In this document: positions 25,393 through 41,400 of the stretch, one piece after another
Position numbering within the stretch: position 1 is the stretch's first letter
How the letters are laid out: each line of letters opens with the position of its first letter
Assembly (NCBI GenBank): GCA_947499565.1
Contig: CANMOV010000001.1
Coordinates: 310,001 to 374,000, forward strand
Reading direction: 5' to 3'
Length of the DNA stretch: 64,000 nt
From: an uncultured Croceitalea sp.
Lineage (GTDB): Bacteria; Bacteroidota; Bacteroidia; Flavobacteriales; Flavobacteriaceae
Position numbers and translations under genes: made by a program
Notes under the pieces: generated by a model
The model's database searches: none
What the model was told of the DNA's origin: nothing
The model's input: the letters and a program-made list of their open reading frames with translations, nothing else

Positions 25393-25956
25393 ATGAGAAA
25401 CTACTTAGAATCATTTGATATACTTTCCAATGAGGAAATTGACTTGTTTGAAAGTAAAGTACGATACAAAAACCTAAAAAAAGGAGCGTTTTTTATCAAA
25501 GAAGGTGAAACCTGCAATGAAGTTGCATTCGTAGTTGATGGATTATTCCGTTCATTTTATTATTCATCTTCAGAAGAAGAAGTAACGTATTGTTTTACTT
25601 TTTCCGATTCTTTTGTTAGTGCCTATTCTTCATTTTTATCACAAACGAAGACAGTAGAAAACATCCAGGCTCTGACAAGTATTGATTTGTTAACAATTTC
25701 GAGAGATGAAATTTTAAAATTAGAGCAATCAAGTACCAATTGGTTAAAGCTATTTAAGTTCATCGCAGAGCAAGAATACATTAAATTGGAAAAAAGAATT
25801 TTTTTATTACAAAAGGAAACTGCTGAAAAAAGGTACCGAGATTTGCTTGCTAATCAACCAGAGTTATTACAGATGATACCATTGAATTATCTATCCTCAT
25901 ATTTGGGAATTTCGCAACGACATTTAAGCCGGATAAGGAAGTCGATTTGGAATTAG
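25393..25956 (+). CDS. Crp/Fnr-family regulator
   Basis: A 187-residue protein: cyclic-nucleotide-binding-like jelly roll (GAFFIKEGETCNEVAFVVDG, then LFRSFYYSSSEEEVTYCFTF), a dimer helix (LEKRIFLLQKETAEKRYRDL) and a short C-terminal HTH (LSSYLGISQRHLSRIRKSIW). The HTH is of the compact form frequent in Bacteroidota. No Fe-S cysteines of the FNR type are seen in the N-terminus. It starts 24 bp after the oxidase module and could control it or the next gene. Ligand unknown. Confidence 0.82.
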   Translation: MRNYLESFDILSNEEIDLFESKVRYKNLKKGAFFIKEGETCNEVAFVVDGLFRSFYYSSSEEEVTYCFTFSDSFVSAYSSFLSQTKTVENIQALTSIDLLTISRDEILKLEQSSTNWLKLFKFIAEQEYIKLEKRIFLLQKETAEKRYRDLLANQPELLQMIPLNYLSSYLGISQRHLSRIRKSIWN

Positions 25957-26013
25957 ACAAATGTCCTTTCTGTGGAACTTCATATTACTGTTCTTTGTAA
26001 AAAGGAATAGAAA

Positions 26014-26592
26014 ATGAAACACGTTTTAATAATCAATGGACATCCAGACAATCAGAGTTTCAATTATGCTTTATCAGAAGCTTACACAAAAGGTGCAAGT
26101 AATACAAATTCTAAATTGAGTCTAGTCAATATTTCAGATTTACGATTCAATCCGAATCTTTCTTTCGGTTATCGAAAAAGAATGGATTTAGAGCCCGATT
26201 TAATAGATGCAATAGAAAAAATAAAAAAAGCGGACCATATTGTATGGATATTTCCAATGTGGTGGTATGGCTATCCTGCGATAATGAAAGGGTTTATCGA
26301 TAGAACATTTTTGCCTGGAATTACTTATCTACCTGTTGAAGGAAAACTTTTCCCAGATAAACTCTTAAAAGGAAAAACAGCGAGAATTATCGTCACTGCT
26401 GACACTGTAAGCTGGTATAATAGATTGGTAATGAAAAATCCAGCTATCAATCAATTTAAAAAAGGCACTTTAGAATTTTGCGGAATAAGTCCTGTTAAGG
26501 TAACTTATATTGCGCCAATCAAAAATTCAAGTTCTGGTTTTAGGGAAAATTGGTTAAGAAAAATTGCCCTGCTGGGTAATAATTTGAAATAA
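26014..26592 (+). CDS. NAD(P)H oxidoreductase, flavodoxin-like fold (NQO1/MdaB family)
   Basis: A 192-residue protein starting MKHVLIINGHPDNQSFNYAL, with the INGHP phosphate loop that binds the flavin, WIFPMWWYGYPAIMKGFIDR (the family FPxWWxxxPA motif) and LPVEGKLFPDKLLKGKTARI. It should reduce quinones or other electrophiles by two electrons with FAD/FMN in the cytoplasm. It lies 57 bp after the Crp/Fnr gene and may be its target. Convergent with the gene at 26710. Confidence 0.85.
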   Translation: MKHVLIINGHPDNQSFNYALSEAYTKGASNTNSKLSLVNISDLRFNPNLSFGYRKRMDLEPDLIDAIEKIKKADHIVWIFPMWWYGYPAIMKGFIDRTFLPGITYLPVEGKLFPDKLLKGKTARIIVTADTVSWYNRLVMKNPAINQFKKGTLEFCGISPVKVTYIAPIKNSSSGFRENWLRKIALLGNNLK

Positions 26593-27417: not shown

Positions 27418-28047
27418 TTATATTTTTTCGAATAATTCTTCCAAAGGCTTTCTGACCTTTTTGCGGTATTGGGTATCATCTTCTTCCGAACGATATCCAA
27501 CTGTAGCGATGACCGAAGCGTTAAGTCCTTTTTTATCCAGGCCTAAAATTTCATTATATGCTACGGGGTCAAAACCTTCCATTGGACAGGCATCGATCTT
27601 GAGTTCGGCACATGCATTCAGTAAATTGGCTAGCGATAAATACGTCTGACGTTTGGACCAGGACTGCCATTCAGATTCGTTCTTTTGGGAAAGGCTTTCT
27701 TTAATAAAATCCCCATAACCCTGTATCTCTGAAATTGGTATTTGCTGAGTCTTGGAAATGTTGTTTATATAATCGTCTATATGCTCCTCTTTGTGTTCTG
27801 AAAAATTGCAAAACACGAATAAATGGGATGCTTCGGTTACCTGAGATTGCCCCCAAGAAACCTCTTTTAAACGCTCTCTTAATGCCTTGTCTTCTATAAT
27901 CAACACTTTGTACAACTGTAAACCATAGGATGACACGGATAGTTGTACCGCTTCTTTCAAGTAATCCAAATCTCGTTCTGAAACGATTTTTTCGGAATCA
28001 AATTTTTTGGTTGCGTAACGCCATTTTAAATTTTCTAGTAGCTTCAT
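27418..28047 (-). CDS. Nitroreductase-family NAD(P)H oxidoreductase (NfsB-like)
   Basis: A 209-residue FMN enzyme. It starts MKLLENLKWRYATKKFDSEK, with the RYATKKFD FMN-phosphate motif typical of NfsB/YdgI-type proteins, SSYGLQLYKVLIIEDKALRE, and near the C-terminus CPMEGFDPVAYNEILGLDKK followed by TVGYRSEEDD. It reduces nitroaromatics, quinones or aldehydes. It is the last gene of the transcript starting at the Crp-type box near 29340 if the 40-bp gap to the acetyltransferase gene is read through. Confidence 0.87.
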   Translation of the reverse strand: MKLLENLKWRYATKKFDSEKIVSERDLDYLKEAVQLSVSSYGLQLYKVLIIEDKALRERLKEVSWGQSQVTEASHLFVFCNFSEHKEEHIDDYINNISKTQQIPISEIQGYGDFIKESLSQKNESEWQSWSKRQTYLSLANLLNACAELKIDACPMEGFDPVAYNEILGLDKKGLNASVIATVGYRSEEDDTQYRKKVRKPLEELFEKI

Positions 28048-28087: not shown

Positions 28088-28825
28088 TTATATATTTTGC
28101 GCTAGTACGTAATTTCTCATTAAGAATTGCTCTTCAAAACCAAGCTTATCATACAGTCCTTTCCCCATCGCGGAGGATTGAAGTACCGCATAACGATATC
28201 CTTTATTAATTGCTTCATATAGCATGGACTGCATCATTCTTTCGGCATAACCTTTTCTTCTCATCTCAGGAATGATCCCCATGGAATGAATTCCAACAAC
28301 CTCGTTTCCACTATAATACATTAAGGCAGTGCCTACTGGGTATGCCTTATCATAGGCTATCAGATAGTCTACTTCATCATAGCTGTTCAGGAGTAGTTTA
28401 TGGTGAATTTTGTAGCCGAAGGCCTTTTCAAATAGGGATTCCCATAATAGTGATGTGCGTTCGTCCTTTACTTTGTGAAGTTCAATTTCTGCAGGAGCGA
28501 AGCTAGCTTTTGTAAGGTCTAAGGACATCCCTACCTGTTCTAAAACTTTTTCGAAACCGTTCATTTTCAAAAGGGGTCCATAATCGTTCCCATCAATTTC
28601 CCAATAGGGAACTGTAATTTTGGTAGACGATGAAGAAATAATTCGTTTAGCAAGGTCCAGATCACTTTGTTCAGGAGTATTTTTAAACCAGAGCCTATTC
28701 GGCCAACTCGAGTAATTTACAATTCCGTAGTCAAAAGCATCCCCTATTGCATAAGCGTCTACTCTTTGATTTACTAATTGCCATAGAGCGGTCAAATTAT
28801 GTATATTGTGTTTCTTTAAGTCCAT
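28088..28825 (-). CDS. GNAT-family N-acetyltransferase
   Basis: A 245-residue protein with a degenerate N-terminal half and a C-terminal GNAT domain. The acetyl-CoA loop is SMGIIPEMRRKGYAERMMQS (RRxGxA form), followed by NKGYRYAVLQSSAMGKGLYD and KLGFEEQFLMRNYVL. Substrate unknown. It starts 3 bp after the stop of the DMT transporter gene, so the two are one unit. Confidence 0.78.
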   Translation of the reverse strand: MDLKKHNIHNLTALWQLVNQRVDAYAIGDAFDYGIVNYSSWPNRLWFKNTPEQSDLDLAKRIISSSSTKITVPYWEIDGNDYGPLLKMNGFEKVLEQVGMSLDLTKASFAPAEIELHKVKDERTSLLWESLFEKAFGYKIHHKLLLNSYDEVDYLIAYDKAYPVGTALMYYSGNEVVGIHSMGIIPEMRRKGYAERMMQSMLYEAINKGYRYAVLQSSAMGKGLYDKLGFEEQFLMRNYVLAQNI

Positions 28826-28828
28826 GTT

Positions 28829-29278
28829 TTATGTGTTTTTAATTAATATTATTCCTAGGGTCATGGCAAGCACGCCAAAAATCTTTTTATAGGCTAAAGG
28901 TTCTGTAGGTAGTCCAAACCAGCCAAAATGCCCTGCTATAACAGAAAACAAAATTTGTCCAAAGAGGCCGATGGAGATCATTGTTGAAATACCCAATTTT
29001 GGTATGGTATAATAGTACAGGCCGATACCGGCTACGCTAAATAGCGCTCCCGAAAACCATAAATAGTATGGGACGTCTTTCAATTGATGGAAGGATGGAA
29101 AATGTCTGGTATTAACGGTTACCGCAAGAAAAGCTATCAACGTACTTACAATATAGGCTACCAGGGAAGTCAACATTGGACTTTTAAGTTGCTCGCTCAA
29201 TTGGGAATTAAAACCACCATGCAAGGCTAAGAACACTCCGCCTACGAAAGCTAAAAGAATTGGTGTTGACTGACTCAT
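28829..29278 (-). CDS. DMT-superfamily transporter (DUF606/YdcZ type)
   Basis: A 149-residue protein with four or five membrane helices, beginning MSQSTPILLAFVGGVFLALH and GGFNSQLSEQLKSPMLTSLV, the N-terminal repeat pattern of YdcZ-like half-size drug/metabolite transporters, which work as dimers. Substrate unknown. It is the first gene behind promoter box C (29306-29352) and is followed by the acetyltransferase. Confidence 0.78.
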   Translation of the reverse strand: MSQSTPILLAFVGGVFLALHGGFNSQLSEQLKSPMLTSLVAYIVSTLIAFLAVTVNTRHFPSFHQLKDVPYYLWFSGALFSVAGIGLYYYTIPKLGISTMISIGLFGQILFSVIAGHFGWFGLPTEPLAYKKIFGVLAMTLGIILIKNT

Positions 29279-29305
29279 AATTCAAAGTATTAATGATTTA
29301 TAGGC

Positions 29306-29352
29306 CAAAATTAGGGTAGTTCTTAACCCCCTGCATTTACATATGTCGATAA
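29306..29352 (-). promoter_or_regulatory. Crp-type promoter box C upstream of the DMT transporter
   Basis: On the minus strand the sequence TTATCGACATATGTAAATGC lies at 29333-29352, and TAATTTTG (a TAnnTTTG -7 box) lies at 29306-29313. The interval between the ATGTAAATGCN end of the box and the -7 box is 18 bp, identical to three other promoters in this window. The palindrome centre falls at about -41 if transcription starts 4-6 bp after the -7 box, the class II activator position. Confidence 0.75.
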
Positions 29353-29359
29353 ATGAATT

Positions 29360-29953
29360 TTAAAGCCCCTTTCTTATCCTACTAAGCTGCGTTGGAGTTA
29401 TTCCAAGATAAGAAGCTATTAACCATTGGGGTACTCTCTGAGGTAATTTGGGGTACTTATTCAGGAAAGAGATATAGCGTTCGGTAGCATTTTCCGCAGC
29501 GAATGAAATTTGTCGTCTTTCATTTTCAATAATCCAATTTTGCTCCAGATTGGCGATATAGTAATTCTTTAAATCATCATGTTTATAGATTACCTCTTTA
29601 TAACGTTGATAGTTCATCTCTAGAATGGTGCCATTGGTGACGGATTCGATACCAAACCCAGAAGGGGTATCCGTCAACATGGAAACTGTGGAGCCAGCCA
29701 AATGACCTTCAACGAAAAAGTTTTTGACATACACGTTGGCTTCATCATCCATCCATTGAGAAATCAAAATTCCTTCACATACAAAATAAATATTTCTTGC
29801 AGTTTGTCCGCGAAATACTATGCTCTCATTTTTCTGAACATTTCTGATTTTAATTAAAGGAAGGAAATCCTCGAAAGAATTTTGAGAAACAGGAGCAAAA
29901 CCGTTTAGATAATTATAAAAAAGTTGGATATGTGGATGGTCGAAAGAAATCAT
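29360..29953 (-). CDS. Crp/Fnr-family regulator, candidate activator of the local regulon
   Basis: A 197-residue protein: cyclic-nucleotide-binding fold (NVQKNESIVFRGQTARNIYF, VCEGILISQWMDDEANVYVK), a dimer helix with ENATERYISFLNKYP, and a short HTH WLIASYLGITPTQLSRIRKG. No FNR-type cysteine cluster. The next gene downstream is preceded by a Crp-type box only a few base pairs from this stop codon, and three more boxes lie within 8 kb. I infer that this protein, or its relative at 25393, binds them. Ligand unknown. Confidence 0.83.
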   Translation of the reverse strand: MISFDHPHIQLFYNYLNGFAPVSQNSFEDFLPLIKIRNVQKNESIVFRGQTARNIYFVCEGILISQWMDDEANVYVKNFFVEGHLAGSTVSMLTDTPSGFGIESVTNGTILEMNYQRYKEVIYKHDDLKNYYIANLEQNWIIENERRQISFAAENATERYISFLNKYPKLPQRVPQWLIASYLGITPTQLSRIRKGL

Positions 29954-30097
29954 AATAGATACTTTATTGGCAATATTTTTTGTGTTGAGGAGGAATCCAT
30001 TAAGAACGGATTTTAGATGTATTGCCTACAAATAAAGATAACGAAAAGATGATTGCAATGAGAAGATTTGCAGTTGTTTATAGTTGTAACATAAAAG

Positions 30098-30134
30098 AAG
30101 CCCGGAAATGCTTTTAGACGAGTTTCCGGGCCTT
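30098..30134 (-). terminator. Intrinsic terminator-like hairpin
   Basis: Inverted repeat AAGCCCGGAAA (30098-30108) and TTTCCGGGCCTT (30123-30134) around a 14-nt loop, a few bases beyond the stop of the isochorismatase-like gene on the minus strand, followed in that direction by A/T-rich sequence. It most likely ends the MarR-controlled operon. Confidence 0.7.
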
Positions 30135-30144
30135 ATCAATTGGA

Positions 30145-30888
30145 TTATTTTGATTTTTCTTCCAAAGTTGTCACGAGCTCCTGCGTTGTAAAAACATGAC
30201 TGGAAATCATTCGAAAATTAGTTTGAGCAGCCTGATTACCATCCAGGTCTGGTATGATGGCCGAGGCAGTGGCATCACCGACTACAGCTACTTCAAAACC
30301 ATCTTCAATCAATTCTCGCATGTGTGCTTCCACACATAGGTTACCCGACATGCCGGCCAGAATGATATTATCGATCTTGTTTTTACGCAACTGCAAGCTT
30401 AGATCATTTTGTTCCGGTCCGAACACCTTATGAGGCCCAACAACAGTTACGAAATCCTTGTCGATATACTTTTTGTAAACTTCTAAAAAGTCGGCTCCCG
30501 AACCTTCAAATCCTTCATCGGAGAATTGATCTTTACGATCGAACATTTTGATATCGTGCATTAGAGTCTCCAATGCACCTTCAAAAACCCATTTATGATC
30601 ATGTTCATAATAGAAATGTGGTGAAATGAATACAGGAATCCCATTCGCCTTAGCCAACTTAAAAAGTGTTTCGAGATTTTCAACCGTATTATTTTCTGTA
30701 ACACTCTGCCCTACTACACCCCAAGTAACACCGGATGGACTAAGGAAATCATTCTGTGGGTCTGTAATTACAATCGCTGTACCACCGTCTATTTTAAATC
30801 CCGGATCTGGTAACTGCGCATTAACTTTGTTTACTGCTAACAAGCCTACCACTGTGATAAGCATTGTCCATGTCATTTTTGTTTTCAT
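30145..30888 (-). CDS. Secreted isochorismatase-like cysteine hydrolase
   Basis: From the ATG at 30888 the protein has 247 residues and a clear signal peptide (MKTKMTWTMLITVVGLLAVN, then KVNAQ). The isochorismatase fold shows the catalytic Asp in VITDPQNDFLSPSG, and the nucleophile Cys in GMSGNLCVEAHMRELIEDGF, followed by GDATASAI. Family members hydrolyse amides such as nicotinamide or cleave vinyl ethers; export to the periplasm is unusual and suggests an extracytoplasmic amide substrate. It is the last gene of the operon starting at 34800. The longer frame to 30951 lacks support. Confidence 0.82.
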   Translation of the reverse strand: MKTKMTWTMLITVVGLLAVNKVNAQLPDPGFKIDGGTAIVITDPQNDFLSPSGVTWGVVGQSVTENNTVENLETLFKLAKANGIPVFISPHFYYEHDHKWVFEGALETLMHDIKMFDRKDQFSDEGFEGSGADFLEVYKKYIDKDFVTVVGPHKVFGPEQNDLSLQLRKNKIDNIILAGMSGNLCVEAHMRELIEDGFEVAVVGDATASAIIPDLDGNQAAQTNFRMISSHVFTTQELVTTLEEKSK

Positions 30889-30957
30889 TTTATTTGTTTT
30901 TAAAATTATTAAGTACTTTTTGTGACTTTCTATTTTTTTGAAGGCCGCCACTCACCT

Positions 30958-31902
30958 TTAAATTACATTCAAACGCGCTTGATAATCTTTTGTCCTAAAC
31001 CATTTAGATACCGATTGCGCTATCTCATATGGGAAATCTTCCTGCACGTAATGTGACTCCTTTAAAAAACCTTTTGAGCTAATTCCGAGATATTCCGTAT
31101 GAAGGTTCGGATAGCTTTCCTGCATCTGTATAACATGCCATGGCTTTATAAGTACTCCTGGTTTTACCCACAGTAATAATTTTGGTATGGAAGTCCTACT
31201 CAACCACTCATGGTTACTTTTGACCATTTCGTAGACATCTCTCGGTTTCTTGTTAATGGGAATCTCATTCGGGAAAACATACACAGGTTTTCTACTATTC
31301 TTCGATAGAAATGGTGCGGCATAATATTCCCTTTCTTTAGTACTCAATTCCCTCTTTGTTCCCATATGTAAGAGGATATTTTCAACAAAGAAGTTATTCT
31401 TGATAATCATCCATTGGCCGATGAAGGGTGTTCTGAAAAGACGGAAGATGAGCCGTGTACGGGCTTTTCCGAAATCCCATTTTTTGGGCTTTATAACACC
31501 CTCCATAAAAGCAACTCCCGTAACCCTATTTTCATTCTTGCGAGCGAAGGCCAAACCGAGGGCCGTTCCCCAATCGTGCAGAACGAAAACAATGTTGTCC
31601 AATTCCAGGATGTTGATGAATTTCTCGATATACCTTTCATGGGTAAGTACTTTATAATCAATTTCGGGTTTATCCGACTTGCCAAAACCTATTAGATCTG
31701 GTGCAACCACTCTTCCTTGCTTTGTGAGCTCCGGTACAATATTGCGCCACAGATAGTTGGAACTGGGATTGCCATGAAGTAAAACAAAGGTGGTTTGATT
31801 GGCATCATTTTGTCTGTTTTCATCTATATAATGTACTTTCGATCCATATACCTTCACGTATTTGGACTCAAATGGAAAGTCTGATTTTATTACTGTTTTC
31901 AT
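30958..31902 (-). CDS. Alpha/beta hydrolase of the haloalkane dehalogenase family
   Basis: A 314-residue hydrolase. Family hallmarks are the oxyanion/halide loop LLHGNPSSNYLWRNIVPEL with the halide-binding Asn, the nucleophile Asp in FVLHDWGTALGLAFARKN with the adjacent Trp, VTGVAFMEGVIKPKKW, and the catalytic His in KESHYVQEDFPYEIAQ. These match HLD enzymes (HDWG, SHYVQED) more closely than epoxide hydrolases. Substrate unknown; natural haloalkanes are plausible in a marine setting. Its start overlaps the SDR stop by 4 bp. Confidence 0.82.
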   Translation of the reverse strand: MKTVIKSDFPFESKYVKVYGSKVHYIDENRQNDANQTTFVLLHGNPSSNYLWRNIVPELTKQGRVVAPDLIGFGKSDKPEIDYKVLTHERYIEKFINILELDNIVFVLHDWGTALGLAFARKNENRVTGVAFMEGVIKPKKWDFGKARTRLIFRLFRTPFIGQWMIIKNNFFVENILLHMGTKRELSTKEREYYAAPFLSKNSRKPVYVFPNEIPINKKPRDVYEMVKSNHEWLSRTSIPKLLLWVKPGVLIKPWHVIQMQESYPNLHTEYLGISSKGFLKESHYVQEDFPYEIAQSVSKWFRTKDYQARLNVI

Positions 31903-32756
31903 GATATATTTGTATTAAGTTGTTGTTTTGTAATACGTTGCTCCGAAGTGTTATCCCGGGATTTCCTTTTTTGGTTTGCTTTTCCCATTAGCGTCCCGAA
32001 CAATTTGGTATTTGCATTGCGAGACATTACCCTTTTTGCTAAAAAACCAAGGACCTTGTTGGAAAAGCCAGGTATGACCTGTGATTTTTTACCTATGGAT
32101 TTCAAAGCCACCTTGGCCACCTCTTCAGGTTGCATAAGATCTGAAGGCATATGACTGAAATCAAAGGAGTCCGTCATTTCAGTTGCCGTCAATCCGGGAT
32201 TTACCGTCAATACATCCACGCCTTTTTTTGCGAGTTCGTACTGCAGGCTTTCTCCTTTTGACAATTCATAGGCTTTTGTCGCTCCATAGACCGAAGAATA
32301 GGGCACACTAACATATGCGAGTAAGGAACCCAGATTAATAATTCCGCCTTCACCTCTTTGAATCAAATGTTTGCCAAAGTGATGTGTCAAAATAGCGGGC
32401 GCTTTAATATTCAGGTCGATCATATCAAGCTCCTCTTCCAGAGCGATATCAAAGTATTCACCCATTTTCCATAGCCCGGCATTATTGATCAACAGACCTA
32501 TATCAAGATGGGCGGTTTCTTCTTTGATGTGGTCAATAAAATTGGGCTGAAGCAAATCTGCTTTAATCGTTTTCACCCGTATACCGTAGTGACCTTCTAA
32601 TTCATCGGCAAGCGCATTCAGTAATTCCTGCCTTCGTGCAACTAGAATTAGGTGTATTCCTTTTTGCGCCAGTTGTTTGGCAAACTCCTTTCCGATTCCT
32701 GAAGAGGCTCCGGTTATCAATGCCCATGGGCCGTACTGTTGTTTAAAATCTTTCAT
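31899..32756 (-). CDS. Short-chain dehydrogenase/reductase
   Basis: A 285-residue classical SDR: ALITGASSGIGKEFAKQLAQ, LINNAGLWKMGEYFDIALEE, the catalytic Ser in INLGSLLAYVSVPYSSVYGA and YGATKAYELSKGE (YxxxK). The C-terminus has KSQVIPGFSNKVLGFLAKRV, shared with the SDR at 39219, so the two are paralogues. Oxidoreductase with an unknown alcohol or ketone substrate. Second gene of the MarR-controlled operon. Confidence 0.87.
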   Translation of the reverse strand: MKDFKQQYGPWALITGASSGIGKEFAKQLAQKGIHLILVARRQELLNALADELEGHYGIRVKTIKADLLQPNFIDHIKEETAHLDIGLLINNAGLWKMGEYFDIALEEELDMIDLNIKAPAILTHHFGKHLIQRGEGGIINLGSLLAYVSVPYSSVYGATKAYELSKGESLQYELAKKGVDVLTVNPGLTATEMTDSFDFSHMPSDLMQPEEVAKVALKSIGKKSQVIPGFSNKVLGFLAKRVMSRNANTKLFGTLMGKANQKRKSRDNTSEQRITKQQLNTNIS

Positions 32757-32796
32757 TTTTACTTGTTTTATATGTTATTAATGATTCAATATTTAT

Positions 32797-34800
32797 CTAC
32801 TCATTTGAGATAGGAAGATGTTCTTTCCCAATTATTTCTGTGTAGGTTACAAACTTGAAGGGGTCAAAAAACTGCACGGAGCTTCGTAATCGATCTGCCG
32901 CTTCTTCTTTTAATCGTTTGATTTTCTCGTTTGTTGGATATCTGCTTTCGGCAGCTGTGGCCATCTGTAATGCCAACTCATTATCACCGTTATGAAGCAT
33001 TTTTTTTAGGGCCTTAGCTACCTGATTTCCGGAAAGGCCTAGATATAGTTGCAAGAGTCGACCACGCTCTACTGAGGTAATTACGTCAAGTCCTTCAGGA
33101 TCTTTTCCACTGACCTCCTCTTGCCATATGCCTACCATATGATCGGCTGTACGTGCTATGATATGGTCTCGTGGTGATAGATAGCCGATGAAAATTTCAG
33201 GATGGTCTTGCAATCCCGGTGGAATCAGATTGAGTCGTATAATGTCTTTGGCGGAATAGCCATTTTTTAAATGTTTTTTGGTTTCATTAATTAACCATTC
33301 ATAAGCGTCTCGATAGGCGCCAAGTTGTTGGATATTTTCGTACAGGATTGTTATTCCAATGTGCCCATGTAAAATGTATTCGGGGCTAAGGTCCAGTGTA
33401 ATGTCCATTACTTCTAGAGCTTCATCAATGTATCCTTCTTCCGTCCATGGCTCTCCATAAAAGGGCATAAGCACATCGCCCATAAAAACCAGTTCCAATT
33501 CGGGAAAATGAATGAGAAGCGCGTCTTCGGTTTCGCCTCCGGTCACCGGGATAAGTTTTATTTGGGACTGACCAATGTTTAACTTTGTTATTGTATCAAC
33601 AACAACATCCGGTTCGTATTCACTAACCCAACGGTCTTTAAAGTCTGTGCCCCTGAATTGGTCATAGGAATGATTTTTAAGGATGCGGTCAACCGTTCCG
33701 TGGAAATTCTCACGCCCGTAAAGCGTTATATCGGAATCAAGGGATTTTAAGTGGGTATATCCCCCAATATGATCCCAATGTGCATGTGTAATCAAAGCCG
33801 TCGTTAACGAAGGCAAGTCGGGATAGTTCTCCAATAAAAACTCATACCCGTCTTTATAGCTGTAGGGCTGGGTTCCCGCATCAATGGATATCAGTTCTTC
33901 TCCATTTTTGGAGACCACAAAATGAAGATCAGAAAATCCAAACCCTCTAACCGCAAAAACTCGATTTGGAATTACCTCTTCCACCCATGGTGTCGGAGCA
34001 AATAAAAGACCCTTCTCCTTGGTGGTAGAAAACCACCCTGAAAACAACATTTTTGGTTCATAATCACCGTAGCCGCTTCGAGCTAGATAGTCCTTTGCCA
34101 ACTCTATGTTGCCTTCTTCGGCATGTAGTTTAGCCAAATAATGGTATACTTCCCTATAGAAACCAGGGGTTGGTTCCAGTTCTGGATGATTTATTAACCA
34201 TGTAAGTTCCTCAAAGGCTTCTTCTGTCTTATTAAATAGGGTAGGTACTTGGGCGTAAATAATTCCTGAAGCCCAATGTGCCAATGGATTTTTTTGAGAT
34301 AACTCGCTTGCTTCCTCTAAGATCTTAAAAGTATCTTTTACCCAACCAATTCTGGAAACAAAGGAAATATTATCAGCATAACTTGCCCTTAAAAGCGCAT
34401 ATGCGGATAGGTAATTAGATCTTACCTGATCTGACATTTTATTTCGATACCTTCCAAGCAAAGTTTCGAAATAAGGAATACCGTAATTCTGCTGATTAGT
34501 AGCAATATATGCATTTGCCAGCAGGAAAACGGGATTGGGGTCTTCAATTGACCCATAGGATAACACCGTTTCATAAAATGCAATATCAGAATGAAAACTA
34601 CGGTCGTTTTCATGTTGCTTGAAAGAAGCAAAGCCCCTAGAGGGATGTAGTGATTCGCTAAGCCCTACAATAGATGTATTCTGCTCAATATTTGAATCCT
34701 TGGTATAAGGTTCAAGATCTGTTTTTGTTTCCTCAGTATCGCATGCCAAAACAATGGTAGCTATTAGTCCCGAGAGATAGATAAGTGATTTTGTTTTCAT
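32797..34800 (-). CDS. Metallo-beta-lactamase-fold lipoprotein related to alkylsulfatases (SdsA-like)
   Basis: A 667-residue protein with a lipoprotein signal MKTKSLIYLSGLIATIVLAC. After a TPR-like helical region (residues about 80-260) comes the MBL domain with metal site THAHWDHIGGYTHLKS, FMGDVLMPFYGEPWTEEGYI and the distal HGHIGITIL. The C-terminal part (GYSAKDIIRLNLIPPGLQDH, then GYLSPRDHIIARTADHMVGI) resembles the alkylsulfatase dimerisation domain. It may release sulfate or an alcohol from a surface substrate; the order of the domains differs from SdsA, where the MBL domain comes first. First gene after the MarR operator at 34820. Confidence 0.72.
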   Translation of the reverse strand: MKTKSLIYLSGLIATIVLACDTEETKTDLEPYTKDSNIEQNTSIVGLSESLHPSRGFASFKQHENDRSFHSDIAFYETVLSYGSIEDPNPVFLLANAYIATNQQNYGIPYFETLLGRYRNKMSDQVRSNYLSAYALLRASYADNISFVSRIGWVKDTFKILEEASELSQKNPLAHWASGIIYAQVPTLFNKTEEAFEELTWLINHPELEPTPGFYREVYHYLAKLHAEEGNIELAKDYLARSGYGDYEPKMLFSGWFSTTKEKGLLFAPTPWVEEVIPNRVFAVRGFGFSDLHFVVSKNGEELISIDAGTQPYSYKDGYEFLLENYPDLPSLTTALITHAHWDHIGGYTHLKSLDSDITLYGRENFHGTVDRILKNHSYDQFRGTDFKDRWVSEYEPDVVVDTITKLNIGQSQIKLIPVTGGETEDALLIHFPELELVFMGDVLMPFYGEPWTEEGYIDEALEVMDITLDLSPEYILHGHIGITILYENIQQLGAYRDAYEWLINETKKHLKNGYSAKDIIRLNLIPPGLQDHPEIFIGYLSPRDHIIARTADHMVGIWQEEVSGKDPEGLDVITSVERGRLLQLYLGLSGNQVAKALKKMLHNGDNELALQMATAAESRYPTNEKIKRLKEEAADRLRSSVQFFDPFKFVTYTEIIGKEHLPISNE

Positions 34801-34819
34801 GATAAATTAGTTTTTTATA

Positions 34820-34837
34820 ATGTTGTATATACAACAT
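34820..34837. promoter_or_regulatory. MarR operator 1
   Basis: ATGTTGTATATACAACAT is a perfect 18-bp palindrome lying 20 bp upstream of the MBL lipoprotein start and just after the marR stop. A near-identical copy sits in front of marR itself, so both are likely bound by the MarR protein encoded between them. Confidence 0.75.
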
Positions 34838-34851
34838 ATAATTTAAATTTT

Positions 34852-35253
34852 TTAATCAAACTTTTCTTCAATTCCTTGGATGTACTCTAGCCCTTCTTTT
34901 TCAAGCTTACCCACTAGTTCATCCATGACCTTTCGCCATTTTGGAATAAGTGTTTTTACCAATTCTTTACCTTTTCCAGCAAGCTCTATTTCGGGGCGAT
35001 ATTCGGGTGATCTTTTTACCAGACCTTGCTCTTGAAGTAGTTTTATATTTCTACTCACGGTTGACCGTTCCAAGAAAAGAAATTCCCCAATCTTACCCTG
35101 CTCTACACGCCCCAGTTCACTTAACGTGAAAAGAATAGTCATTTGATTCTCTGTAATCTTGTGATCGGCAAGACATTTTCTCATATAGTTGTCCGCAATG
35201 CGGGATAACCGTCTCAACCGCGATGCTACGCAATCTTCCAATTTGTATTTCAT
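34852..35253 (-). CDS. MarR-family repressor
   Basis: About 133 residues from the ATG at 35253 (MKYKLEDCVASRLRRLSRIA); the longer frame begins at a TTG inside the -7 box and is unlikely. Winged-helix motifs: HKITENQMTILFTLSELGRV, QGKIGEFLFLERSTVSRNIK (recognition helix) and LLQEQGLVKRSPEYR (wing). It probably represses itself and the 34800-30145 operon from the two palindromes at 34820 and 35273. The ligand is likely an organic substrate of the operon. Confidence 0.88.
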   Translation of the reverse strand: MKYKLEDCVASRLRRLSRIADNYMRKCLADHKITENQMTILFTLSELGRVEQGKIGEFLFLERSTVSRNIKLLQEQGLVKRSPEYRPEIELAGKGKELVKTLIPKWRKVMDELVGKLEKEGLEYIQGIEEKFD

Positions 35254-35257
35254 CGGG

Positions 35258-35290
35258 CAAAGATACAATCAAATGTTGCATATACAACTT
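35258..35290 (-). promoter_or_regulatory. marR promoter and MarR operator 2
   Basis: On the plus strand ATGTTGCATATACAACTT (35273-35290) matches operator 1 at 16 of 18 positions. On the minus strand TATCTTTG (35265-35258) is a -7 box, with a TTG 19 bp upstream that lies within the operator, so repressor binding would block the -33 region. Only 4 bp separate the -7 box from the marR ATG, implying a leaderless or near-leaderless mRNA. Confidence 0.72.
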
Positions 35291-35317
35291 AATTGGCTGT
35301 TGCTTAACAATTTTCAA

Positions 35318-35797
35318 TTAAGCAATAGCTTTTTTTTCAACTTCATTCTCTTTGACCACATACTTGCCCGGTGTCAATTTGAACGTTTTCATCAATCTGG
35401 TCCAAGTATTGATTTGAGAGATGGCCAAGGTCAGATAACTTATTTCACTTTTGCTGAAATGCTTCAGTAAAGTGTCAATTTCCTCATCAGTAATAGGTCT
35501 ACTTCCCATATTTGTCAGGTTTTCTGTAAACCTAAGTACTTCTCGTTCCCTATCGTTAAAAAATGGGGAATCGTCCCAGGCAGAGAGTAAGGCAAGGCGC
35601 AGATCGGATTCACCAAGATGTTTCAATACCTTATGGTGCATGTCAACACAATAGGCACATCCGTTGATTTGCCCGACTCTTAACCGGATAAGCTCCAACA
35701 AATCCATTTCAATGGGGGAATCATTTATAAACTGTTCCACCCCCATTAATTTTTCGAACATTCCCTTGGGAATTTCGTGATAACTAATTCGTTCCAT
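35318..35797 (-). CDS. AhpD-like carboxymuconolactone decarboxylase family protein
   Basis: A 159-residue all-helical protein. The CMD signature is LIRLRVGQINGCAYCVDMHH with the redox CxxC (CAYC) and the following His, as in AhpD-type peroxidase-linked reductases. A C-terminal SEISYLTLAISQINTWTRLM helix is typical for this subfamily. Likely a thiol-based antioxidant protein. It is a single-gene unit behind Crp-type promoter box A. Confidence 0.87.
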   Translation of the reverse strand: MERISYHEIPKGMFEKLMGVEQFINDSPIEMDLLELIRLRVGQINGCAYCVDMHHKVLKHLGESDLRLALLSAWDDSPFFNDREREVLRFTENLTNMGSRPITDEEIDTLLKHFSKSEISYLTLAISQINTWTRLMKTFKLTPGKYVVKENEVEKKAIA

Positions 35798-35843
35798 AAT
35801 TCTAAATTTTAAGATTAAACATTATCATATTATAAATATGAGG

Positions 35844-35890
35844 CAAAGTTAAACCCGGTCTTGCGCATTGGCATTTACATATGTTGATAA
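35844..35890 (-). promoter_or_regulatory. Crp-type promoter box A upstream of the AhpD-like gene
   Basis: Minus strand: TTATCAACATATGTAAATGC at 35871-35890, an 18-bp interval (35852-35869), then the -7 box TAACTTTG at 35844-35851. The AhpD-like start is 47 bp downstream. Spacing and sequence match boxes B, C and D. Confidence 0.78.
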
Positions 35891-35928
35891 ATGATAGCAA
35901 TAGGGCTTTTTAGATATTTTGAATTATT

Positions 35929-36282
35929 TTAATTTAAACTTGCCAATACTCCTTGAGAATAAACAGCTTCATTTTGTCTATGCGTAAATTGTGTCAATCG
36001 AAGTATAGAATTGTGTTTTGCTAAAAGTTCGTGGAGGATACCTCCTTCCAAGCTAAGCATATCACCTCTTTTTAGAAGTACTTTCTTGTCTCCAGCAGAA
36101 AATAATATTTCCCCCGCGAATACCTCCACAGTAATTCTATATGGGGTTTTATGTCTACGCATTAGCTGCCCCCTCTTAAATGTTACTCTCAATTCTCTGC
36201 CACCATCTGTTTCGGAGAGTAAAGTGACCAATGGGTAATTTTCTCCATATACCAAGTTGTTCAATATTGATGTTTTCTTCAT
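35929..36282 (-). CDS. Small cupin-like protein
   Basis: A 117-residue beta-barrel protein. The cupin-like pattern covers GQLMRRHKTPYRITVEVFAG, EILFSAGDKKVLLKRGDMLS and LEGGILHELLAKHNSILRLT, where the conserved Gly-Asp and His positions of the cupin motifs are visible, but the first motif has only one clear metal-binding His. Function unknown. It follows the small membrane protein gene by 35 bp and should be on the box B transcript. Confidence 0.65.
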   Translation of the reverse strand: MKKTSILNNLVYGENYPLVTLLSETDGGRELRVTFKRGQLMRRHKTPYRITVEVFAGEILFSAGDKKVLLKRGDMLSLEGGILHELLAKHNSILRLTQFTHRQNEAVYSQGVLASLN

Positions 36283-36316
36283 GATTCTAGTTTTATATAT
36301 TTCTATTTTTTTTAGA

Positions 36317-36598
36317 TTAAATGGAATTAAAAATGATGATGAACGTGCTGATTAAAATGCTAGCCAATAACAGTTTGAAAACCACTTCCGATTTTCTTTG
36401 TGATAGTACCGCAGCATTAAAAAGCATACACGCGATAGTGACTATAAATAATTGTATCATTTGAAAAATGCTATTTCCGTTCATTAGAATAAACATGGCC
36501 GCCACTGAACCCAGACAACTTTGTCCGATTATGAAAATCGTTGAATATCCTCTAATGTCCTTTCGAAATTCCTTCAGAGATTTTACATATAGTTCCAT
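36317..36598 (-). CDS. Small membrane protein, unknown
   Basis: A 93-residue protein with three predicted helices (TIFIIGQSCLGSVAAMFILM, FQMIQLFIVTIACMLFNAAV, VFKLLLASILISTFIIIFNS). No recognised family. First gene behind promoter box B, with the cupin gene downstream. Confidence 0.6.
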   Translation of the reverse strand: MELYVKSLKEFRKDIRGYSTIFIIGQSCLGSVAAMFILMNGNSIFQMIQLFIVTIACMLFNAAVLSQRKSEVVFKLLLASILISTFIIIFNSI

Positions 36599-36622
36599 AA
36601 CTAATAGGTTTTAATTATGGTA

Positions 36623-36669
36623 CAAATTTATTCAGCCCAAAAGAGGCTGGCATTTACATATGTTGATAA
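36623..36669 (-). promoter_or_regulatory. Crp-type promoter box B
   Basis: Minus strand: TTATCAACATATGTAAATGC at 36650-36669, an 18-bp interval, then the -7 box TAAATTTG at 36623-36630. The start codon of the small membrane protein at 36598 is 25 bp further. Confidence 0.78.
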
Positions 36670-36824
36670 TGGGAAATTTAGTGGAAGAATTAAGTTGTAC
36701 TATTAAAGGAACTATTTAGAATATTCTGATATTCCCTAAATCTAGTATTGTAAGCTATATCAGGCTTAAGAAGGTATTGGCATAAAGAAATATTATGAAT
36801 TATAGCTGATTTTGACATTAGTAT

Positions 36825-37439
36825 TCATTCCGCGACAAAATTATCATCGTCCTTATTTTCAGTCCAATTGTATTCAATCTCATTGGCTACTTTCCTAGCA
36901 AAGTCCATTCCATGTCTATCTGCTAAGAACCCAAGCGACATATCCATTCCCGCGCTCACTCCCGAAGAAGTATAATATTTACCGTCAATTGCCCATCGTG
37001 CTCTCTTATCCCAATTAACATTTGTGTTTTGAGAAGAAACCCAAGAAAAAGCTATCTTATTTGAAGTAGCCCTTTTTCTGTCCAGAAGTCCTGATTTTGC
37101 AAGAAGAGCACTTCCTGTGCAAACTGTAAGCACATAATTACTTGCTTTGGAAAGTTCCGTTATCTTGTCTATTAGGGACAAATTATCTACTTCTTTTCTT
37201 GTACCATACCCACCAGGTATTAACAATATTTCAGGTTTAATGCCAATGGTTTCTAGTTTTTCCGTCATAATCGGAACCCCGTGTCGGTTTGATATTATTC
37301 CACCTTCCAATGAGTAGAACTTTAGAGTATATAGGTCTGCTAATCTACCAAAGATTTCAGCAGGTCCAAATACATCCAGAGTTTCATAATCATCGAACAT
37401 AACGAAAGCGATTCCCATAGTATTATTTTTTTTATGCAT
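36825..37439 (-). CDS. DJ-1/PfpI-family protein
   Basis: A 204-residue protein starting MHKKNNTMGIAFVMFDDYET, with FGPAEIFGRL, LLIPGGYGTR and the nucleophile elbow VLTVCTGSALLAKSGLLDRK, then RWAIDGKYYTSSGVSAGMDM. The layout fits the isonitrile hydratase/ThiJ branch that acts as amidase, hydratase or glyoxalase-like enzyme. It is a single-gene unit behind promoter box D. An ATG eight codons in is a possible alternative start. Confidence 0.83.
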   Translation of the reverse strand: MHKKNNTMGIAFVMFDDYETLDVFGPAEIFGRLADLYTLKFYSLEGGIISNRHGVPIMTEKLETIGIKPEILLIPGGYGTRKEVDNLSLIDKITELSKASNYVLTVCTGSALLAKSGLLDRKRATSNKIAFSWVSSQNTNVNWDKRARWAIDGKYYTSSGVSAGMDMSLGFLADRHGMDFARKVANEIEYNWTENKDDDNFVAE

Positions 37440-37509
37440 GGTTTTCTATTTTTTGATCAATTATGCTATTCACCGTAATAAAGATCAGGATTACAATTAA
37501 CAAATGAAA

Positions 37510-37556
37510 CAAAGCTAGTTTCAATTTTATCGCTGGGCATTTACATATGTTGATGG
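37510..37556 (-). promoter_or_regulatory. Crp-type promoter box D upstream of the DJ-1/PfpI gene
   Basis: Minus strand: CATCAACATATGTAAATGCC ends at 37536, then an 18-bp interval (37518-37535) and the -7 box TAGCTTTG at 37510-37517. The DJ-1/PfpI start is 70 bp downstream. The outermost TT of the other boxes is replaced by CC. Confidence 0.75.
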
Positions 37557-37813: not shown

Positions 37814-37834
37814 CTAACCGTTTGTTTAGTTTTG
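37814..37834 (+). promoter_or_regulatory. TetR operator 1 overlapping the tetR -7 box
   Basis: CTAACCGTTTGTTTAG at 37814-37829 is an imperfect palindrome with arms CTAAC and GTTTAG. It overlaps TAGTTTTG (37827-37834), a TAnnTTTG -7 box, so binding would repress tetR. The second operator at 38433 is the same motif in the opposite orientation. Confidence 0.7.
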
Positions 37835-37852
37835 CATAATAATTCACTAATA

Positions 37853-38416
37853 ATGCCCAGAAAGAAGGAATATAAGGAAGAAGATGTTATAGATAAAGCG
37901 ATGCATTTATTTTGGTTAAATGGCTATGAAAATACTTCAATGCAAATGCTTGAAAAAGAAATGGGGATTAATAAATTTTCCATTTATTCAAGCTTTGGTA
38001 ATAAAAGTGGGGTTTTTGTTGAAAGTTTAAAACTATATAGAAAGAAATTAAATAAAATTATTAGTCAGCTTGAAGCATCCACGGATGGAGTATTGGGTAT
38101 CAAACAGTATTTTTATAATACATTGGATTTTTCAAAAGGGAAAGATTTTTGTAAAGGTTGTTTAGTAACAAATACTGCGAATGAAGTTGATAATAATACT
38201 GACCCAAAAATATTATCTCAAATAGAAGATTTCAGCGTATATATAAGACAATTATTTTTAGATAACCTTAGTCAAGATGCGAGTAAGGGCAAAGAAACTA
38301 TTGAGGAACAAGCAGATTATTTATTGATTGCAATGATTGCTCTATCTTCTGCATCTAAAATTTGTAACCAAGCACAGTTAAATAATTATATAGAAAACAC
38401 ATTTAATAGATTATAA
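37853..38416 (+). CDS. TetR-family repressor
   Basis: From the ATG at 37853 (MPRKKEYKEEDVIDKAMHLF) the protein has 187 residues; the longer frame starts at a TTG inside the -7 box. The HTH is GYENTSMQMLEKEMGINKFS followed by IYSSFGNKSGVFVESLKLYR, the usual TetR N-terminus. The C-terminal domain has KGCLVTNTANEV, as in the YxaF/AcrR-like branch with a Cys. It probably controls itself and the 38486-42088 operon. Confidence 0.88.
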   Translation: MPRKKEYKEEDVIDKAMHLFWLNGYENTSMQMLEKEMGINKFSIYSSFGNKSGVFVESLKLYRKKLNKIISQLEASTDGVLGIKQYFYNTLDFSKGKDFCKGCLVTNTANEVDNNTDPKILSQIEDFSVYIRQLFLDNLSQDASKGKETIEEQADYLLIAMIALSSASKICNQAQLNNYIENTFNRL

Positions 38417-39218: not shown

Positions 39219-40025
39219 ATGCAGAACTTAAAAAATAAATATGGAGATAAAGCTTTAGTTACGGGAGGATCTTCAGGTATGGGAAGAGCGTTTGCTTTTG
39301 AACTTGCAAAGCAAGGAATTGAGCCAATTTTAATTGCTAGAAGTAAAGATAAACTTGATGAAACAGCAAATGAAATTTTTGAAAAGCACAACGTCAAGGC
39401 ACAAGTTTACTCTGTAGATTTATCAGACGAAAATGCCATCACAACATTTTTATCTCAAATTGAGAATGAGAAAATAGGTTTATTAATTCATGCCGCAGGA
39501 ATGGAAAATAATGGAGGTTTTACAAAAGTGAACCCACAGAAAGAACTCATGTTAATTAAGCTTAATGTTACGGCAACTTACCTTTTAACCAATCATTTTG
39601 CAAAAAAAATGACACAAAATAAAAAGGGTGGCATTTTACTGATATCAAGTATGGCCGGTTTAATGCCCACACCTTATTTTAGTAATTATGCAGCTTCAAA
39701 AGCCTATGTTCATAATTTAGGTTTGTCACTCTATCCTGAACTTAAACACAAAGGTGTTGATATTAGTGTTCTTGCACCTGGCTTAACGGAAACCAATATG
39801 GTGGCAGATAATGGTATAGACTGGTCTAAATTACCAATGTCAAGTATGAAGCCTGAAAAAGTAGCAAAAATCACACTAAGTAATCTAGGAAACAAAGCAA
39901 CAATAATTCCAGGGTTCATGAACAAGATGATGGTGGCAATGTCTAAAAGAGTTTTCTCAATGAAAAGCTTTAGTACACTACAAGGCTCATTAATAAAAAA
40001 AGCAATTTCTGATGACAAATTATAA
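39219..40025 (+). CDS. Short-chain dehydrogenase/reductase
   Basis: A 268-residue classical SDR: ALVTGGSSGMGRAFAFELAK, LIHAAGMENNGGFTKVNPQK (NAG replaced by HAAG), ILLISSMAGLMPTPYFSNYA with the catalytic Ser and YAASKAYVHNLGLSLYPELK. The C-terminal KATIIPGFMNKMMVAMSKRV parallels the SDR at 31899, marking a paralogous pair. Substrate unknown. Confidence 0.87.
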   Translation: MQNLKNKYGDKALVTGGSSGMGRAFAFELAKQGIEPILIARSKDKLDETANEIFEKHNVKAQVYSVDLSDENAITTFLSQIENEKIGLLIHAAGMENNGGFTKVNPQKELMLIKLNVTATYLLTNHFAKKMTQNKKGGILLISSMAGLMPTPYFSNYAASKAYVHNLGLSLYPELKHKGVDISVLAPGLTETNMVADNGIDWSKLPMSSMKPEKVAKITLSNLGNKATIIPGFMNKMMVAMSKRVFSMKSFSTLQGSLIKKAISDDKL

Positions 40026-40050
40026 TCAGAAACTTTAAAATCAAAATATT

Positions 40051-40551
40051 ATGAAAAAAACTAATTGGATTAAATTTTTCAGGATTTATGTGATTATCTG
40101 GATTTGGATCATGTTTGCCTTTGAGGCTATGGAATCATTTTTATGGATGACTCAAACGAAAGAAATGCTTCTAGAGCACCCTAAACTTGGAACCTTTTTT
40201 GGGTATCAAGACATAATATCCTCAGGTACTGAAAGTGCACAACGACTTCCAATCATAATGGGAAAATGGATTGGTATGTGCAAGGGGTTTTGGGCAGGCT
40301 CACTACTAGCCATTGCATTGTTGAGTAATAATCGCACGCGTACTTTTGCAAGTGCTTGGATTGCTGTAGGCTTAACAATTATGAGTTTAGGGCTTTATCC
40401 AACATTAGATGAAATCGCCTTATCATTTCCAACAGATTTTTCTAATGGATTTAGCGGTATGACAACCTTAGAGGCAATTTTTGCAATGCTATCTGCAATT
40501 GCGATGATCTTTGGGATAATTGTAGAATCGAAATCGAAAAAAAAGAACTAA
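40051..40551 (+). CDS. Membrane protein, unknown
   Basis: A 166-residue protein with four predicted helices, starting MKKTNWIKFFRIYVIIWIWI and containing SGTESAQRLPIIMGKWIGMC, AGSLLAIALLSNNRTRTFAS and TTLEAIFAMLSAIAMIFGII. No family recognised. Lies 25 bp after the SDR and 12 bp before the hydrolase, so it is an operon member. Confidence 0.68.
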   Translation: MKKTNWIKFFRIYVIIWIWIMFAFEAMESFLWMTQTKEMLLEHPKLGTFFGYQDIISSGTESAQRLPIIMGKWIGMCKGFWAGSLLAIALLSNNRTRTFASAWIAVGLTIMSLGLYPTLDEIALSFPTDFSNGFSGMTTLEAIFAMLSAIAMIFGIIVESKSKKKN

Positions 40552-40563
40552 TAAGTAAAAGTC

Positions 40564-41400
40564 ATGGAAATTAAAAGAACAAAATATACTATAAAAGGCA
40601 ACGAACTATCTATTCTAGAGTCTGGAGATAAAAACAATCCAATAGCACTTTTTGTGCATGGTATACCTGCAAATGCAAAGCTTTGGACAAGAACTATGGA
40701 ACAATTAAGTGATAATGGATATTACGCACTAGCATTTGATATTCCCGGATTTGGAGAAACAAAAGTAACTGAAGATTTTGACTATTCACTAAAAGGAGCA
40801 GCCTCTCTTATTAATAATTGGTTAATTGAGCAGAATTTCGAAAATATATGGTTGATAGCTCATGATATAGGAGGTGGTATCGCACAGATTATGCTTACCT
40901 TAAACGAGTCTTTATATCAAAAAGTTACTTTGTCTAATTCCATTACCGCAGATACATGGCCAGTGCCAGCAATTGAAGGAATAATTGGTGCGGCTAAATC
41001 TGGAATGTTCACATCATTAGCTGAAACTGGGGCAATTGCGACTCAATTAGGACCTGTCATAAAAGACACTTTTGTAAATAAAAAATCTATTACTGATTAC
41101 ATTTTAAATGATGTTTTTCTTGATAGTAAATTTAACTCTAAAGAAGGGCGTGATAAATTTATTAAACTGTTGAAAGCTCTTGACCCCAAACATACCATAG
41201 AAAACATGAAGAAGCTTTCTAAAGTTACAATTCCTCTTCATTTAATATGGGCAATGCAAGATCCTAATCAACCCTGGGATGGGCCAGGAAAAATTTTAAA
41301 AGAGACATTTAAAACAGTTCGTGTTTCCCAAATTGAAAACGCAGGGCATTTTTTACAATTGGATGCACCCAAAGAATATTTCAATTTACTAATCAGTTAA
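40564..41400 (+). CDS. Alpha/beta hydrolase with Asp nucleophile (dehalogenase/epoxide hydrolase group)
   Basis: A 278-residue hydrolase: oxyanion region ALFVHGIPANAKLWTRTMEQ, YALAFDIPGFGETKVTEDFD, nucleophile motif WLIAHDIGGGIAQIMLTLNE with Asp in place of the common Ser, and the catalytic His in IENAGHFLQLDAPKEYF. Asp nucleophiles occur in haloalkane/haloacetate dehalogenases and epoxide hydrolases; this one lacks the Trp after Asp that marks haloalkane dehalogenases. It pairs with the SDR in the TetR operon. Confidence 0.8.
   Translation: MEIKRTKYTIKGNELSILESGDKNNPIALFVHGIPANAKLWTRTMEQLSDNGYYALAFDIPGFGETKVTEDFDYSLKGAASLINNWLIEQNFENIWLIAHDIGGGIAQIMLTLNESLYQKVTLSNSITADTWPVPAIEGIIGAAKSGMFTSLAETGAIATQLGPVIKDTFVNKKSITDYILNDVFLDSKFNSKEGRDKFIKLLKALDPKHTIENMKKLSKVTIPLHLIWAMQDPNQPWDGPGKILKETFKTVRVSQIENAGHFLQLDAPKEYFNLLIS

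Follow-up and report, generated by a model that had tools for sequence, protein, structure and literature searches.

The window analysed here is a 64,000-nucleotide stretch of an uncultured Croceitalea sp. assembly (GCA_947499565.1, contig CANMOV010000001.1, positions 310,001 to 374,000), in which a gene for a Crp/Fnr-type regulator, here called crpA, is followed on the minus strand by an operon for a YdcZ-type exporter, a GNAT acetyltransferase and a nitroreductase. The promoter of this operon and three further minus-strand promoters, which precede genes for an AhpD-like protein, a small membrane-like protein with a cupin-like protein, and a DJ-1/PfpI family protein, share an operator-like palindrome and a TAnnTTTG -7 box (Table 1). 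A first-pass annotation made from the sequence had proposed that these four boxes form a local regulon tied to a Crp/Fnr gene. All four were found where it had placed them, far beyond chance (20-mer with at most 3 mismatches: 4 in the window, against a mean of 0.03 after shuffling). For the composite ACATATGTNNATGC-N(16-20)-TAnnTTTG, the window again has 4 matches where 0 are expected, and in the 3.88 Mb assembly it occurs at the same 4 places and none elsewhere. The relaxed 20-mer has 7 matches in the whole genome; by eye, the 3 beyond the window have no TAnnTTTG or other -7 box in register, and they were rejected as promoters.

At 4/4 sites, 19 bp separate AAATGC from TAnnTTTG (14+19+8=41 bases), and not exactly 18 bp as first reported. 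The fourth site begins CCATC and has 2 mismatches to the proposed 20-mer, so all four have just the 18-mer ATCRACATATGTAAATGC in common. If the first T of the -7 box is numbered -12, the palindrome ATnnACATATGTnnAT, positioned from that box, is centred at -41.5 and AAATGC has its G at -33, so that the claim of a palindromic core near the class II position holds with the 19-bp gap. The four 19-bp spacers are unrelated, and the likeness is confined to the operator and the -7 box. TTTG is missing at -33 from all four promoters, which therefore look dependent on help. Between the end of crpA at 29360 and the first box lie 7 bp, within the 10 bp claimed.

To follow the motif in relatives, a sample of 397 family genomes from a larger group was scanned with two bases and the gap (16-20) left free. 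Eleven sites were found in 6/397 genomes, the own genome included, and every site had AA and a gap of exactly 19; the backwards control gave 0 among the rows listed. Six CrpA relatives were also found by protein in public genomes, including Flagellimonas and Allomuricauda, and the composite is present in all six, where the core begins 12-16 bases after crpA ends. Eleven loci, 6 picked by protein and 5 by motif, were mapped; among them L020 lies on the same contig as the G120 matches, and L025 and L026 are one genome. A CrpA homologue stands directly before the site in 11/11 of these loci, in agreement with the proposed tie to a Crp/Fnr gene. A YdcZ-type exporter and a GNAT gene lie within the next few genes behind the site in all 11, and a nitroreductase in 8; the gene order behind the site varies and the site is constant. 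A CrpA profile built from 12 sequences (40-91% identical to CrpA; cut-off E<=1e-45) matched 24 genes in 23/397 family genomes. The first-pass annotation had held that a lack of co-occurrence with Crp/Fnr genes in relatives would speak against it; co-occurrence was found, as all 6 strict-motif genomes are among the 23 CrpA genomes (hypergeometric p=1.9e-8). TCRACATATGTAAA with at most one mismatch lies close to the stop codon in 21/24 CrpA-profile genes.

The layout is shared by other Crp/Fnr paralogues, which goes beyond what the first-pass annotation saw. The own genome has 17 PF00027 matches, and the L067 regulator is followed by TTGATTTATATCAA in the same register. Due to this site, a wider set of 121 distinct Crp/Fnr-type open reading frames (ORFs) was gathered from the own genome, from profile matches in the family and class samples and from five genomes (84/85 matches, one broken match omitted). 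L054 was left out and own-genome loci without a profile match were dropped; L111 (wrong or broken frame) and the doubtful members L057 and L063 were kept, and 3/121 have no recognisable helix. Palindromes with at least 6/8 pairs were counted by their distance d upstream of where a TAnnTTTG-like box (5/6 letters) ends. Behind these ORFs, d=37 was found in 47/121, d=38 in 7 and any other distance in 0-5 (d 28 to 47). For ORFs below 50% identity, the count at d=37 was 30/78 versus 1.06 in 200 shuffles (largest 5). Gene bodies gave 0/121, the reverse strand 1/121 and the ends of non-Crp ORFs, long frames selected by length only, 1/180 (other distances 0-5). Without the TPxQ class, the source of d=37, the count was 29/85 (others 0-6). 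Six genomes of other families gave 6/24 loci at d=37 and at most 1 at other distances, in a validation set that counts L164 and L181, which picked ORFs already in the set (L074, L071). Under looser limits a site lies behind 71/121 Crp ORFs, and a co-directional ORF follows 66/71 of these sites, a count without control. In 17 of the 71 site-bearing genes (e.g. L149, L157, L127 and L131) the palindrome is centred 6 nt away from the first base of the stop codon, and these stops (10 TGA, 7 TAA) fall within the operator half-site TTGA/TTAA. Separately, L069 (own genome, contig C8) is a Crp/Fnr gene with a PETLSRVR helix and a perfect CTTGATTTCAATCAAG within 30 nt, for which no in-register -7 box was picked.

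The type of operator sorted with the recognition helix of the regulator. TPTQ/TPVQ helices mostly have TCAACATATGTAAA or TTAACnnnnGTTAA sites, PET and similar helices TTGA-type sites, several of them exactly TTGATnnnnATCAA, PEF/PEY helices CTTAA-type sites, and QRH/RH helices GGACA-type sites in 2/5 rows. Helix similarity predicted operator similarity (Mantel r 0.514, maximum of 2000 permutations 0.222; rows, 47/75 non-redundant), and r was 0.497 once sensor-domain identity was removed; the palindromic operator thus covaries with helix residues 180-185, as tested for the CRP/FNR superfamily. Moreover, TCRACATATGTAAA with at most 2 mismatches lies close to the stop codon in 26/36 TPxQ regulators, many of which were chosen by the CrpA profile, versus 0/85 other Crp ORFs; with 3 mismatches the counts are 32/36 versus 4/85. 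This tracking of the TPxQ helix, together with the covariation, is the main evidence that the regulator encoded before the site reads it. As a side observation, L118 and L166, which have PVS/PIS helices and come from different families, are both followed by the near-identical site GATAACAATTGATAAC.

The first-pass annotation had also remarked on the outer AAATGC, conserved on one side only, as unusual for a simple dimer site. Towards the promoter, the ninth base (-33) is G in 31/71 sites versus 6/71 on the mirror side, and in 14/41 versus 3/41 non-redundant sites (Fisher p=0.005). A promoter contribution at -33 explains the one-sided AAATGC better than an odd dimer does, and its best reading is a half-site with a -33 element joined to it; the TTTG sequence as such is not conserved.

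The size of the regulon was compared in 14 CrpA genomes by means of a degenerate 18-mer that tolerated one mismatch. Four places were found in the own genome, 3 in one genome, 2 in seven and 1 in five (26 in all). The backwards control yields 4 places, so some of the relaxed places are chance and one-mismatch places far from crpA are mostly suspect; when 8 loci with such far places were rescanned, a near-perfect box in register was seen solely in L198. Within the 20-kb loci, a second exact composite occurs in L020 and L021, and L023 has a one-mismatch site with the box TATTTTTA upstream of an AhpD-like gene. The protein behind the second L020 site starts similarly to the 93-aa small membrane-like protein of the window. 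The four-promoter set is the largest seen and is partly shared. The motif is present in 1/8 genomes of the own genus, which makes the locus patchy and suggests that it may have been acquired.

The sites, their spacing, their adjacency to crpA and the covariation were computed directly, and we infer from them binding by CrpA, activation rather than repression, the start sites and a signal. We consider it likely that CrpA acts as a class II activator of the Crp/Fnr type, that its regulon has expanded locally, and that it represents one of many cassettes of regulator, operator and target. A CrpA dimer would bind the 16-bp palindrome ATCRACATATGTAAAT and activate from the class II position, centred at -41.5, at promoters with a TAnnTTTG -7 box and without a TTTG -33 box. 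Its basic target would be the exporter/GNAT/nitroreductase operon directly behind crpA, and the three further promoters within 8 kb that carry the same site would make up a local regulon of four promoters with detoxification-type genes. Many paralogues follow the same plan: a regulator gene, its own palindrome at or over the stop codon in the -41.5 register and then a putative target gene, with the operator matched to the helix. On balance, and with more reserve, we also favour the general statement that Bacteroidota hold a large paralogue family of compact Crp/Fnr proteins in self-contained cassettes, each activating the next gene through a palindrome of its own that lies at or across the regulator's stop codon, is fixed at -41.5 and can be deduced from recognition-helix residues 180-185. 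On this view, regulons such as that of CrpA would grow as nearby promoters gain the private site.

CrpA might instead bind the sites and repress, blocking the -33 region until a ligand releases it. The operator does overlap this region, and detoxification-type genes are often under repressors. However, a fixed d=37 over many paralogues with different operators fits a class II activator touching polymerase, whereas a repressor would tolerate other positions, and the lack of TTTG at -33 again suggests promoters in need of help; we therefore regard repression as improbable. Another regulator could also be the binder, since the genes for a MarR protein (34852-35268), a TetR protein (37832-38416) and the second Crp/Fnr protein, CrpB, all lie near the sites, and a palindrome of 16 bp would be compatible with MarR or TetR as well. 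MarR homologues occur in 3/11 mapped loci and a TetR match in 1/11, versus CrpA homologues in all. CrpB has a QRH helix, a type whose relatives pair with GGACA-type sites where noted above, and the motif follows the TPxQ helix. On the locus counts, the helix type and this association, all three were rejected as binders, and we think it very unlikely that any of them reads the motif. Accordingly, of the two proteins that the first-pass annotation had named as candidates, encoded at 29360 and 25393, the former fits and the latter does not, its gene having another candidate site over its own stop.

Four near-identical copies inside 8 kb could also be a short mobile or repeated element with no regulatory role. 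Their identity ends at the operator and the -7 box, with unrelated spacers between, no further copies exist in the genome, and distant genomes preserve the spacing, the position and the gene context; the mobile repeat was rejected and has a negligible probability in our estimate. Several observations weigh against the activator with a local regulon and against the general layout. Three of the 24 CrpA-profile genes have no close site (L044 and L047 none, L051 one with 3 mismatches). The three extra promoters are mostly unshared, second sites in register being seen solely in L020 and L021 and, less exactly, in L023 and L198. The upstream control is also highest at d=37 (6/121 versus 0-4 elsewhere), and 50/121 Crp ORFs have no site even under the looser limits, so the rule is not universal. 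Finally, the Pfam scan gave no helix-turn-helix match for CrpA, and PF00027 was just below its cut-off there.

Table 1 Features of the crpA locus and its four promoters (positions in the window).
Feature	Position	Strand	Basis or remark
crpA, Crp/Fnr-type regulator, 197 aa, helix GITPTQLSRIRK	29360..29953	-	proposed binder of all four sites
Operator 1, ATCGACATATGTAAAT, centre -41.5	29335..29350	-	pattern scans; behind crpA in 6/6 relatives chosen by Crp protein
-7 box of promoter 1, TAATTTTG	29306..29313	-	composite scan; start predicted near 29301 (inferred)
Operator 2, ATCAACATATGTAAAT	35873..35888	-	pattern scans
-7 box of promoter 2, TAACTTTG	35844..35851	-	composite scan; start predicted near 35839
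Operator 3, ATCAACATATGTAAAT	36652..36667	-	pattern scans
-7 box of promoter 3, TAAATTTG	36623..36630	-	composite scan; start predicted near 36618
Operator 4, ATCAACATATGTAAAT	37539..37554	-	pattern scans
-7 box of promoter 4, TAGCTTTG	37510..37517	-	composite scan; start predicted near 37505
YdcZ-type DMT exporter, first gene of operon 1	28829..29278	-	PF04657 2.1e-32
GNAT acetyltransferase, operon 1	28088..28825	-	PF00583 1.3e-09
Nitroreductase, operon 1	27418..28047	-	PF00881 1e-20; NF008275 5e-35, under its cut-off
AhpD-like (carboxymuconolactone decarboxylase family), promoter 2	35318..35797	-	PF02627 1.5e-13; TIGR00778
Small membrane-like protein, 93 aa, promoter 3	36317..36598	-	ORF; no family match in family scans
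Cupin-like protein, promoter 3	35929..36282	-	PF07883 2.8e-04, under cut-off
DJ-1/PfpI family protein, promoter 4	36825..37439	-	PF01965 4.8e-15
crpB, second Crp/Fnr-type gene, QRH helix	25393..25956	+	PF00027 1.9e-09; not proposed binder
Candidate crpB site GACAAATGTC over crpB TAG stop	25956..25965	+	by eye; missed by scoring scripts
Weak -7 box GTTCTTTG, same register as candidate crpB site	25990..25997	+	by eye

The gene content gives a hint of function. A chain from nitro reduction through acetylation to export is plausible for the products of operon 1, and a 'stress' role of the regulon is suggested solely by the kinds of genes it contains. Behind the sites of the other paralogues, 30/40 next genes were scanned against Pfam. 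They comprised short-chain dehydrogenases (4), AhpD-like proteins (3), hydrolase types (3), glyoxalases (2), single NmrA-like, DJ-1, MFS and YdcZ matches, six of other families, among which a secretion-tail protein and DUF2141 are not suggestive of detoxification, and 8 with no match. This content points to small detoxification cassettes as what the paralogue sites may serve. Gene pairs for a short-chain dehydrogenase and an alpha/beta hydrolase, named by sequence reading, flank the regulon at 30958-32756 and 39219-41400. A gene for a flavodoxin-like NAD(P)H oxidoreductase lies behind crpB and the candidate GACAAATGTC (window 25393-26592); CrpB, with its different helix, probably has another operator.

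A cyclic nucleotide (cNMP)-binding-type sensor barrel in CrpA was detected as PF00027 at 25.8 bits in one scan (cut-off 27.5) and 27.6 in another, and residues 27-128 gave profile matches to CRP structures. The C-terminal helix-turn-helix is included in the profile matches to PDB 3dn7 and to DNR 3dkw (residues 10-196). The best solved relative by profile is 3dn7 (E 1.5e-24, residues 11-196), a 'cyclic nucleotide binding regulatory protein' whose listing states neither function nor operator. AlphaFold, given 7 close sequences, returned a low-confidence model (pLDDT 58) with two terminal helices, and the predicted fold membership of CrpA rests on the profile matches. CrpA has a single cysteine, C59, not invariant among its homologues, which excludes an FNR-type [4Fe-4S] cluster with its four cysteines.

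Family genomes hold many Crp/Fnr paralogues (G019 has 26 matches to the CrpA profile), most of which, to our knowledge, have no known function. No description of the regulon or of the cassette rule turned up in the literature searched, a term search of PMC9723704 included, which is a weak absence given partial coverage and a name, Crp/Fnr, that is hard to search. If the rule is true, the operators of many uncharacterised regulators per genome would be predictable from sequence; if each paralogue points to its target and its operator, the regulons and a code of protein-DNA recognition could be read and tested jointly, in a phylum whose promoters are unusual and in which few regulators have been mapped. 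With a known signal, the cassettes could also be used as parts for sensors.

Among known systems, CRP and FNR of E. coli are class II activators. The regulators described here resemble them in protein family, in a palindrome of 14-16 bp and in its centre at -41.5, and the pairing of PET-type helices with TTGATnnnnATCAA boxes recalls FNR. In contrast to both, the proteins here are compact (about 190-200 aa), the -7 box is that of Bacteroidota and the site comes immediately after the gene of the regulator itself; unlike FNR, CrpA has one cysteine and no FNR-type cluster. HcpR2 regulators of Bacteroides and others are FNR-like, with a gene co-localised with a single predicted target, hcp, and the consensus GTAACnnnnGTTAC (PMC1274295, excerpts of which are the source for this and the following comparisons). 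They share with CrpA a regulator gene beside its target and a 180/181 helix code for operator bases. CrpA differs in its exporter/GNAT/nitroreductase targets, in TCRACATATGTAAA and in the fixed register behind the regulator across many paralogues; no Hcp was found among the ten window proteins scanned, and the site differs, so CrpA does not class with HcpR2, as far as these excerpts define it by an adjacent hcp and GTAACnnnnGTTAC. NssR of Campylobacter jejuni, a positive regulator of globin targets with helix A180 Q181 and the operator TTAACnnnnGTTAA, belongs to another phylum with other targets, but its operator is near the TTAAC/TCAAC sites of the TPVQ/TPTQ helices here. The helix-operator sorting reported here agrees with the 180/181 code for CRP/FNR regulators given in the same excerpts.

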